From the NCBI GenBank assembly GCA_947446605.1, contig CANFHJ010000015.1, forward strand, positions 1 through 36,111: DNA of 36,111 bases, given 5' to 3'. This DNA comes from Bacteroidota bacterium (lineage in GTDB: Bacteria > Bacteroidota > Bacteroidia > UKL13-3). Positions 219 to 16,968 of the stretch are shown piece by piece; positions within the stretch are counted from its first letter, which is position 1; every line of letters starts with the position of its first letter. A program made the position numbers and the translations under genes. Under the pieces are notes generated by a model that saw only the letters and a program-made list of their open reading frames with translations, was not told the origin of the DNA and searched no databases.

Positions 219-1361
219 TTATCCCTCCAAAATTCGAATCAAATCATTGTTGATATAATACACTTCCCTGCCATCTGTTTGTGAACTTAGGATGCCTAAT
301 TCTGTTAGTTGAAGCATGTATTTGGTTAAGGTTGTTCTGCTTTTGGCACCTGTTATTTCACCTACCAGTTTTTGTTTGATATAGGGCTGCGAAAACAATG
401 CTTGGTTCAATTCATAACTGTACCACTTTATTTTGGCATTGGCATATTGATAGGTAATAGCCATTTGTGCCAAAATTTCATCAATTTTTTGGTTGCTTTG
501 TTCTGCCGTTCCTTCCACTGCCTTTAGCATAAAAAGTATCCAAGGCTTCCACATGCCACGCTGGGTAACACCTGCCAAATGATAATAGTAATCGTCTTTG
601 TGGTGAATAATATATTTGCTTAAATATAAAACGGGATGTGTAAGAAGTTTTTGGTCTACCAAATACAGCAAGTTTAAAATTCGGCCAGTTCTGCCATTGC
701 CATCAATAAATGGGTGAATAGCCTCAAATTGATAATGGGCAATAACCATCTTTAATAGTGGGTCCAAGCCTTTTTCTTGATTTAAAAAGGCAAATAAATT
801 GTCTATCTTTTTTTCAATAATTCCAGCGCCCCTTGGTGGCGTGTAAATTATTTCTCCCGCCCTAAACTCACTTTGCCCGCGCTTTATAACTACTTGCGAT
901 TGCGGCGAACGAATACCCTGCCTGGTGTTTTTTATTTGTTGAAATATTTTTACCGCAACCGACTTATCAAATGTTTTCTTTTTTTGTAGTGCGCCGTATC
1001 CTCCCCATAAGGCTTCTCTATAACGCAAAACTTCCTTGGTTGCAGGGTTTGCTAATTCTTCTTTGGTTTGATCCGATATGGCTTTGTATAATTCGTCCTC
1101 TGTTGTGAAAATATTTTCAATAGCCGTAGAGCTCTGCGCTTCCTGCAAGGAAATGGTATTTACCAACATCAATGGATTTGGAATGCGCATAATATTTTTA
1201 TTTAACGCTGCCAGTGCCCTCGACGATAAACCCCATTGTAGCAAAATATCTTTGTCTATTATTTCGTCTGCTATTGGTAATTCTGGTAAATCATTATAAG
1301 GTATGGTTCTATCGAAAACCCCCTTTTTTGATTTGTTCATTTTTTTAGAATTATTGGACAT
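219..1361 (-). CDS. Fic family protein (Fic/DOC with Fic_N region and C-terminal winged-helix-like region)
   Basis: Fic core HPFIDGNGRTGR; N-terminal STAIEN matches the [S/T]xxxE[G/N] inhibitory helix motif; C-terminal wHTH-like segment KQKLVGEITGAKSRTTLTKYMLQLTELGIL. Confidence 0.95.
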   Translation of the reverse strand: MSNNSKKMNKSKKGVFDRTIPYNDLPELPIADEIIDKDILLQWGLSSRALAALNKNIMRIPNPLMLVNTISLQEAQSSTAIENIFTTEDELYKAISDQTKEELANPATKEVLRYREALWGGYGALQKKKTFDKSVAVKIFQQIKNTRQGIRSPQSQVVIKRGQSEFRAGEIIYTPPRGAGIIEKKIDNLFAFLNQEKGLDPLLKMVIAHYQFEAIHPFIDGNGRTGRILNLLYLVDQKLLTHPVLYLSKYIIHHKDDYYYHLAGVTQRGMWKPWILFMLKAVEGTAEQSNQKIDEILAQMAITYQYANAKIKWYSYELNQALFSQPYIKQKLVGEITGAKSRTTLTKYMLQLTELGILSSQTDGREVYYINNDLIRILEG

Positions 1362-1515: not shown

Positions 1516-1851
1516 ATGAAAAACTTTCTCTTCTTCCTTTTTCTTATTGCAGCAATTGGTTCGGCAAAAGCGCAAAAAGTATTTGGTGTAAACTATGCCA
1601 ACCAAGCAGATGTAAAAGTTTTTGTGGTGCAGTACCAAAACCAAGCCGATTTAAAAGTATACAAAGTGAAATACAGCAACCAAGCGGGAAACAACGATGG
1701 CCATTGGTTCTTCACTGATTACAGCAACCAGGCCCAAAAGAAAATTTTCTTTGTAGATTACGCCAACCAAGCGGATATTAAAATATTCTTTGTGCAATAC
1801 GAAAACCAAGCTGGATGGATCAATGCCTCCAAAAAAAGTTTTATGTATTAA
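1516..1851 (+). CDS. Secreted small repeat protein, DUF6150-like / 7(1) septoil knot domain protein
   Basis: Signal peptide MKNFLFFLFLIAAIGSAKA, then 13-aa repeats YxNQA(D/Q)xKxFxVx and terminal YENQAGW. Confidence 0.75.
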   Translation: MKNFLFFLFLIAAIGSAKAQKVFGVNYANQADVKVFVVQYQNQADLKVYKVKYSNQAGNNDGHWFFTDYSNQAQKKIFFVDYANQADIKIFFVQYENQAGWINASKKSFMY

Positions 1852-7629: not shown

Positions 7630-9174
7630 ATGAAAAAATTTCTTTTCAGCAAACCAGTTTGCTTTGTGTTTTTTGTTCTGCTAGTTGTTAATCAGTCATT
7701 GCATGCACAAAAGCCTGTTTTATTGAAAACAGGTGTTGCAGATTCTGCTTTACTCGATTATAAAACCATTGGCGATACTTGTTTTTTTAAAGTTAAACAA
7801 GGTGGCTTTTTTCAGCTTTGGAAAACAGATGGAACTACCGCTGGAACGGTGCTTGTGAAGGATTCTTTTGTGAGCGAAATTGGCAATTTTGTTTCCTTAA
7901 ATAATACACTTTATTTCTTTGGTCCGAACCGATTTGGCAAACCTGCCTTATATAAATCTAATGGTACAAAATTAGGTACGGTAGTGGTTCGAAACTTCTC
8001 TGCCGATTCATCTATTTTGTTAGGATTAAGCGTAATAAACAATGTAGGCTATTTTAGTTATATGCATGGCAATCCTCATTACGAAGGCATTTGGAAAACC
8101 TATGGTGATTCTGCAGGAACCACTGAAATAAAAGCGGGTATTTTAGTAAAAAAAACATTTCAAAACAATGCGTTTTTTAAAGCTGGAACCACACCAATTA
8201 TTTTTATGGTTAACAATCCCGGTAGCAGCTATGCTGCCATTTGGAAAACAGATGGAACACTTGCAGGAACCATGAAATTAAAAGACAGTGCTTTTTTGTA
8301 TAGCATTAGTAAAATTGGAGGATTGGTGCAAACCACAACTTGCACCATCTTTACTGATTATGCTGGCGCGTCAAATTTATGGCGCAGTGATGGAACTGTT
8401 GCAGGCACCTATATTCTTCGCGGCGGGAGTATCAATAATTTAACATTGTACAACAACAATGCCTATTTTTTATCGGGTGCAATTTATAAAGCATTGAACA
8501 AAACTGATGGCACTTCAACAGGTGCAGTGTTAGGTTTAAGTAATGTGGGCAATAGCCTTGGCGTATTGGGAAATAAATTGTTTTTGGGAGGAAAAGACAA
8601 CAACGATTGGGAACCATATGCCGGAGATGGCACGCCTGCTAATACCAATTTGTTAAGAGATATTCATTTGGGAGCAGATGCGGGTGGTTCAGATCCAAGA
8701 TATTATACAGCATTAAATAATACGATGTTTTTTATTGCCAACAACAATGTGCATGGCGATCAAATATACCGCAGCAATGCCACTATTGCTGGAACTACAC
8801 TGGCCTATGCCTTAGCAGATACCATTCCTGGTTTTAATACAAAAGGCTTAAGTGCAAGTGGTTCTTATCTCTTATTTGTTTCAAACAACAATGCATTGTA
8901 TGTGTTGCGTCCTACAGCAAATCCAGCTGGTTTATTCGGTTCGAACCAAATGCCGATGCTGAAAGTATTTCCCAATCCAACCAATTCAATACTTTATATT
9001 GATTACCCTGCATCCCAAAATACCTTTATTCAATTGCATTCATACCTTGGACAAGAAATTTTAGCAGTACCTTTTACCAATAAATTAGATTTATCGGCCC
9101 TCAGCAAAGGAATTTACTTCCTCAGCATTACTGACAAGGATAAAAAATATACGCAAAAAATTATTGTTGATTAG
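7630..9174 (+). CDS. Secreted ELWxxDGTxxGT-repeat protein with T9SS type A sorting domain
   Basis: Signal peptide; repeats FQLWKTDGTTAGT, AAIWKTDGTLAGT, SNLWRSDGTVAGT and diverged copies; C-terminal KVFPNPTNSILYIDYP...LSALSKGIYFLSI...QKIIVD. Confidence 0.9.
   Translation: MKKFLFSKPVCFVFFVLLVVNQSLHAQKPVLLKTGVADSALLDYKTIGDTCFFKVKQGGFFQLWKTDGTTAGTVLVKDSFVSEIGNFVSLNNTLYFFGPNRFGKPALYKSNGTKLGTVVVRNFSADSSILLGLSVINNVGYFSYMHGNPHYEGIWKTYGDSAGTTEIKAGILVKKTFQNNAFFKAGTTPIIFMVNNPGSSYAAIWKTDGTLAGTMKLKDSAFLYSISKIGGLVQTTTCTIFTDYAGASNLWRSDGTVAGTYILRGGSINNLTLYNNNAYFLSGAIYKALNKTDGTSTGAVLGLSNVGNSLGVLGNKLFLGGKDNNDWEPYAGDGTPANTNLLRDIHLGADAGGSDPRYYTALNNTMFFIANNNVHGDQIYRSNATIAGTTLAYALADTIPGFNTKGLSASGSYLLFVSNNNALYVLRPTANPAGLFGSNQMPMLKVFPNPTNSILYIDYPASQNTFIQLHSYLGQEILAVPFTNKLDLSALSKGIYFLSITDKDKKYTQKIIVD
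8938..8950 (+). repeat. CGGTTCGAACCAA word, copy 1
   Basis: attCGGTTCGAACCAAat, within the T9SS repeat protein gene. Confidence 0.8.
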
Positions 9175-15821: not shown

Positions 15822-16952
15822 CTATAAATTAAAGCCCAAACTCCATTCCATAAAATCTGATTGCAATTGCTGTTTTTTGTTAATGGTTCCTTTGAAAAAC
15901 AAGCCTGAATAAAGGTGTTTGGTGATTTGATAACCTAGGCCAAATCTTACGTAAATGGGTTCTTTCACGTATTTCATTGGAGTTAAATAATGGTATATGC
16001 CAAGTGGGAAAAACAATTTACCCAATTCCATTCGGTTGTATAGTCCAATTGCCAAAAAATACTTTTGGTTTTCGGCAACATCGCTAATCCTTAATTTGGA
16101 CGCGTATAATAATACTTGTGTGGCATCGTAAAATGCATCCAAACCTAAACCAATTCCATATAATTTATTTAAAGACAAATAGGCATTGTTACTAATGGTG
16201 AAAACAGGAAATTTGGTGATATAATTAAAATAGCCTAATTCCCTGTATGCACCAGCAATATTGAGCATATAGTGCAATTTCTTTTGACTTATTTGGTAAT
16301 TCGGTTTTTGAATAAGAATGCCATTTTTGCCATGAGGAAAATAACTCAATCCCACATTTCCATAAATAATATTGATGCCTCCATTGGGCATCTTTAAGCT
16401 GCCATTGGATACATGGTATAAGCCTGTACCCAAAGTAAGTTGCAAATTCTCCTTGAGTTGAATTTGCGAATGAATGCCCCAATCAAATGCAAAATTTACC
16501 CCAGAACTAATTGCCCTGTTATCGAAATTATTTTGTTCGTGGTATTGTTTGCTGTTGAAGTTAATGCCATAGGATAACTTCATGCCAATTTGAAATTGCT
16601 GCTTATTTAATAATGGAACAAAATAGGAGGGAAGTATGCCCAAACAATAGCCAAAGGTATCCACATTATTCATTTGAATAATTCTTGCCTGAAGTGCCAT
16701 TCTTGCCTTCCCAAAGCTTTCGGTAAATGCCTCTTTTTTTAAGCCATATTGAACCCATGAAATGTCAATACCTTGGGGAATACCATTTAAACTGGCTCCT
16801 GTCTTTATAACTGGATTCGAAGCAAAATGATAACCAGTAAAATAAGCTACTTCAAAACCTCTTGTTCTTTCATTATCGGTTTGAGCCAATACCAATTGAG
16901 GACTTAAAAAAATAAAGCAATAGAAAAAAAATGCATTTATAGCAGGTTTCAT
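15822..16952 (-). CDS. Acyloxyacyl hydrolase / PagL-like outer-membrane protein
   Basis: Signal peptide; beta-barrel pattern with GTGLYHVSNGSLKMPNGGINIIYGNVGLSYF (HxSN motif). Confidence 0.8.
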   Translation of the reverse strand: MKPAINAFFFYCFIFLSPQLVLAQTDNERTRGFEVAYFTGYHFASNPVIKTGASLNGIPQGIDISWVQYGLKKEAFTESFGKARMALQARIIQMNNVDTFGYCLGILPSYFVPLLNKQQFQIGMKLSYGINFNSKQYHEQNNFDNRAISSGVNFAFDWGIHSQIQLKENLQLTLGTGLYHVSNGSLKMPNGGINIIYGNVGLSYFPHGKNGILIQKPNYQISQKKLHYMLNIAGAYRELGYFNYITKFPVFTISNNAYLSLNKLYGIGLGLDAFYDATQVLLYASKLRISDVAENQKYFLAIGLYNRMELGKLFFPLGIYHYLTPMKYVKEPIYVRFGLGYQITKHLYSGLFFKGTINKKQQLQSDFMEWSLGFNL

Positions 16953-16968
16953 TGGTTCGAACACAATT

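Follow-up and report, generated by a model that had tools for sequence, protein, structure and literature searches.

To our knowledge, no protein fold more tangled than that of the DUF6150 (PF19647) family has yet been solved. The solved members of this knot class that we found amount to one protein, Q9PR55 (UU089.1) of Ureaplasma, with PDB entries 8IWA, 8IWB, 8IWC, 8JRM, and 8W68. The 7_1 knot of this 89-residue protein was predicted by AlphaFold and then confirmed by X-ray crystallography (PMC9278004; PMC11223836; PMC13352647), and its published knot core comprises residues 27–83 (PMC9278004). The homologue P73136, which is 48% identical to Q9PR55 and has one winding fewer, is predicted to form a 5_1 knot; in the same study, a knot is regarded as deep if it survives the cutting of at least 5 residues from both ends (PMC9278004).

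The present protein is encoded by an open reading frame at positions 1516–1851 of the plus strand of the window (the whole 36,111-nucleotide stretch of DNA that was analyzed), which runs from ATG to TAA and specifies 111 amino acids, the stop codon being included in the frame. The initial annotation had assigned the repeat pattern to DUF6150, and a Pfam HMM search bears this out: the PF19647 profile matches with 81.8 bits (E = 3.8e-23) against the Pfam cutoff of 27 bits, from position 5 to 96 of its 98 columns. By this profile match, the window protein is a clear member of DUF6150. It shares with the Pfam family the full-length match, the six-unit architecture, the longer third unit, and the Trp, with no structural difference, and it represents the putatively exported, Bacteroidota-type form with YxNQA units. 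NCBIfam holds no model for it. A near-identical protein (L088) occupies the same site in genome G012. Taken together, we consider it highly probable that the gene encodes an exported, stand-alone DUF6150 member with a knotted fold like that of Q9PR55.

The N-terminus (1516–1572, plus strand, as are the features that follow) resembles a Sec signal peptide. The segment MKNFLFFLFLIAAIGSAKA displays a Lys, a hydrophobic stretch, and the site AKA|Q, with probable cleavage before Q20; the reading is based on these sequence features and on a like pattern in most relatives. AlphaFold confidence is low (59–60) at residues 1–20. Export to the periplasm is thus suggested. Cleavage at AKA|Q would leave a mature protein of 92 residues rather than the about 91 given previously, and the first strand, QKVFGV (S0, 1573–1590), would lie at its very start, ahead of unit 1; the model places this strand at mature residues 2–5.

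The remainder of the mature protein consists of six YxNQA units, delimited by both the repeat reading and the model: unit 1, YANQADVKVFVVQ (1594–1632); unit 2, YQNQADLKVYKVK (1633–1671); unit 3, YSNQAGNNDGHWFFTD (1672–1719), which has 16 residues because of an insert and carries the Trp that is the sole invariant column in the mature-protein alignment; unit 4, YSNQAQKKIFFVD (1720–1758); unit 5, YANQADIKIFFVQ (1759–1797); and unit 6, YENQAGW, followed by the C-terminal helix INASKKSFMY (together 1798–1848), modeled as a helix at mature residues 85–91. At the DNA level, AACCA(A/G)GC occurs at 1600, 1639, 1678, 1726, 1765, and 1804 and at no other plus-strand site in the window. The spacings are 39, 39, 48, 39, and 39 nucleotides, the value of 48 corresponding to the 16-residue unit. 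Shifting the mature protein against itself by 13 residues yields 32 identical matches, compared with a mean of 10.5 (sd 1.5, maximum 17) in 5000 shuffles. The 13-residue periodicity is therefore far above chance, and the six units with a longer third one, as well as the signal-peptide-like start, are as the initial annotation described them.

The full-length chain was modeled by AlphaFold with a pLDDT of 88.4. For the 92 mature residues, with 38 aligned sequences, the pLDDT was 96.7 and the pTM 0.85, all five models falling between 95.9 and 96.7, so that the prediction called for earlier is a confident one. The mature model comprises six short strands, a one-turn helix at the NQA motif between each pair of strands, and a C-terminal helix. 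In a Foldseek search of the PDB, only the Q9PR55 entries rose above background. The best match was the NMR entry 8JRM, entitled a 7_1 knotted solution structure, with a probability of 0.97, an rmsd of 2.8 Å over 76 columns, and TM scores of 0.51/0.53. The Foldseek E-value was weak (0.009–0.09), and the Q9PR55 crystal chains superposed poorly on the model (about 10 Å), perhaps owing to a register slip in a repeat protein. Against viral structures, used as a negative control, the same model reached a probability of 0.11 at most. The comparison with 8JRM agrees with the knotted fold first proposed, and the model argues for the same three-dimensional fold in the window protein as in Q9PR55, its best and only real fold match.

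The two proteins are alike in being built from strand–turn repeats, in having six strands (read from the sequence in the case of Q9PR55), and in the equivalent placement of the longest connection. They differ in that the units of Q9PR55 are 11-residue SFPD units, whereas those of the window protein are 13-residue YxNQAD units, and their identity is 18–21%. In addition, Q9PR55 has about 26 residues ahead of its knot core, compared with about 2 in the window protein after cleavage.

Searches of the PDB with the single window protein and with the family profile returned no match to 8IWA, and a profile–profile comparison with a Q9PR55 fragment extended over 10 columns only and was uninformative. 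The relationship to Q9PR55 instead emerges through a bridging relative, the protein L025 of genome G010. It matches 8IWA (Q9PR55) in phmmer with an E-value of 1.1e-4 and the Q9PR55 fragment in BLASTP with 5e-9, over Q9PR55 residues 29–88. On the other side, it matches the G012 twin, near-identical to the window protein, with 4.5e-6 and a protein of G019 with 1.4e-7. L025 (also L148) is short and without a signal peptide, and it has SFPD units like those of Q9PR55 next to the WFF insert unit and the AGW end seen in DUF6150. The comparisons support sequence homology of the window protein to Q9PR55, through this intermediate only. The bridging protein would be a good target for structure work.

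We propose that removal of the signal peptide leaves a chain that would wind round itself through its six strand–turn units, giving a torus-type knot of six strands and very small size, as in Ureaplasma Q9PR55 (PDB 8IWA, 8JRM). When VVNSFPD (Q9PR55 residues 29–35) is aligned by motif with GVNYANQAD (mature residues 5–13), the core falls at about mature residues 3–68, so that roughly 2 residues precede it and roughly 24 follow it. Therefore, the designation of the protein as deeply knotted is doubtful, finding no support at the N end, and 5_1 becomes a live alternative. The alignment suggests little depth for a 7_1 knot on its N-terminal side, and also that the N-terminus freed by signal-peptide cleavage could take part in the final threading step. 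The knot of the window protein would accordingly be 7_1, or 5_1 should the short tail at the N-terminus be disregarded.

That the mature protein retains the family and the overall fold but is a 5_1 knot, with almost no chain left N-terminal to the first strand, seems to us possible though rather doubtful. Such a reading draws on the core limits of Q9PR55 and the 5_1 prediction for P73136 (PMC9278004) and on an aligned core that starts at mature residue 3; it is harder to reconcile with six strands and a longest connection placed as in Q9PR55 and with how well the model superposes on the 7_1 NMR structure. We regard an unknotted β-solenoid, or another open repeat fold, as very unlikely: a 13-residue repeat would suit it, and the topology of an AlphaFold model can be wrong, the program being able to pass chains through one another (PMC10672856), but no Foldseek match stands out save the 7_1-knotted protein, and homology to that protein is reached through the G010 bridge. 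Among the relatives, the divergent exported proteins L023 (G059), L124 (G459), L125 (G258), and L126 (G164) have AGC in place of the terminal AGW and a second Cys close to the N-terminus; were the two ends joined by a disulfide, the chain would be closed and the knot could no longer be undone. A 239-residue ORF in G076 (L024, L026) has an N-terminal DUF6150-like repeat domain without a signal peptide, a Ser-rich linker, a likely transmembrane helix, and an SH3_3-like domain, and it is possibly a cytosolic knot tethered to the membrane.

The six motifs of a given protein tend to be of one type. Position 3 of the motif (the N of YxNQA) is uniform across the six units in 90 of 103 proteins, being N throughout in 69, S in 18, Y in 2, and H in 1 (G062), with the remainder mixed. 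Among 18 representatives below 72% identity, the identity between units within a protein exceeds that between the same units of different proteins at motif positions 1–4 (0.86/0.68, 0.50/0.24, 0.88/0.35, and 0.83/0.49, respectively). The strand positions behave in the reverse manner (p7, 0.15/0.50; p9, 0.22/0.75; p11, 0.25/0.70). Strand residues keep their unit identity while the motifs are uniform within a protein, so the units were differentiated before the motif types diverged, and the six motifs later changed together. Motif positions 1–4 thus change in all six units at once, at the level of the protein. A tree built without the motif columns requires a minimum of 13 motif changes, but it is too poorly resolved for independent switches to be counted, and very few of them are required by branches with strong support. 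In many proteins, the second motif position is mostly Glu in units 2, 3, 5, and 6 but varies (A, S, P, or E) in units 1 and 4, which have it in common; this pattern would be in keeping with a chain that goes round twice, three units per lap.

Tandem repeats often undergo concerted evolution, and the uniformity could in principle stem from gene conversion or unequal crossing-over in the DNA, without functional meaning. We find this highly improbable, and no result of the present analysis backs it. The identity of codons at matched positions (0.556) equals that expected from each gene's own usage (0.550), AGY and TCN serine codons occur side by side in 12 of 20 Ser-type genes, and unit-specific strand residues are kept across proteins. 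With codons not homogenized and strand residues retaining their unit identity, gene conversion at the DNA level is rejected in favor of selection on the protein. Selection could also act if the six motifs were equivalent binding sites for a repetitive ligand, such as a glycan, peptidoglycan, or a metal, and switched together for that reason and not by mutual contact. Motif positions that are alike in all six units yet change between proteins are compatible with such sites, as are the all-His type and a protein that is probably exported and monocistronic. Conversely, every unit of the two Tyr-type proteins (SKYDA and SEYQA) has its Tyr shifted to position 3 from position 1, which resembles packing compensation. 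We hold ligand-driven switching to be possible but on the doubtful side.

A ring of contacts between the units appears to us a reasonable, if still tentative, proposal. In such a ring of mutual contacts among the six turns, one change would force the others. The broader statement that the six turns act as one unit, whether as a closed contact ring that locks the knot or as a six-fold equivalent binding surface, is one we put forward with similar reserve, a little short of an even chance. If it is true, the means by which a torus-knot protein is stabilized could be read from the sequence. The co-switching of the six motifs offers a direct and testable approach to the forces that keep the knot in place, and it may hint at function. 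The product would be a cell-envelope domain, highly stable and resistant to proteases, with a binding or structural task, and not an enzyme; a binding role there, specifically, we would call conceivable but somewhat unlikely. We know of no earlier report of six-fold co-switching, and no paper on the family was found. The literature searched contained no mention of DUF6150 or PF19647, and the word 'septoil' was confined to a soft-matter paper. Both family and knot class were already known; the window protein adds a member, and the co-switching is the new element.

The occurrence of DUF6150 in Bacteroidota is patchy. Matches were found in 23 of 98 related genomes, including 5 of the 19 from the same genus, and in 22 of 393 genomes sampled across the phylum. 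A scan of named genomes yielded 132 relatives, of which 80 were kept, labeled as Bacteroidota almost throughout, and the family is strongly conserved across this phylum. Flavobacterium and Gelidibacter are among the carriers (L041, L051, L055, L087). Together with at least 130 relatives from named genomes, the window protein makes up an extensive set of strongly conserved, probably exported proteins, in which knot type, folding after export, and stability can be compared. No DUF6150 relatives were found in the phage, plasmid, and viral-contig collections searched. The gene is usually present in a single copy per genome; two copies are seen in the pairs L123 and L127 (G242, within 1 kb of each other), L031 and L037, and L034 and L047. 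A weak second match in the genome of the window (L002) belongs to a larger peptidase-like ORF and so is no paralogue. Two copies are apparently broken, L114 (G479) by an in-frame TAG in unit 4 and L020 (G015) by an early stop that shortens the repeats.

In the window, the gene lies between a divergent gene for a SoFic-like Fic-domain protein (Fic_N, Fic, and SoFic-like_C; 219–1361, minus strand) and a co-directional pirin gene. At the pirin site, DUF6150 is present in the closest relative, G012 (L088, L129), only and is absent from the other readable pirin loci of the same genus. A survey of 80 loci from many lineages revealed no conserved partner gene, the largest neighbor clusters comprising 7–9 loci, and the fuller clusters represent lineage-specific synteny. 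The solitary position noted in the initial annotation thus holds both here and across the family. In seven loci (L038, L043, L054, L058, L065, L067, and L075), DUF6150 directly precedes genes read from their sequences as a PnuC-like transporter and a NadR-like kinase of NAD salvage, an association that is probably lineage-specific synteny as well.

A Bacteroidota-type -7 promoter box, TATATTTG (consensus TAnnTTTG), is located at 1488–1495 on the plus strand, 28–21 bases ahead of the start codon. Boxes of this type are present in the 100-base upstream stretches of 21 of 73 relatives, mostly between -40 and -10, compared with 5.2 ± 2.2 in shuffled sequences. With a promoter box to itself and no conserved partner gene, the DUF6150 gene is most likely monocistronic. 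Elsewhere in the window are a protein with a type IX secretion sorting tail (7630–9174, plus strand) and one with a PagL-like lipid A deacylase domain (15822–16964, minus strand), both of which fit a Bacteroidota genome.
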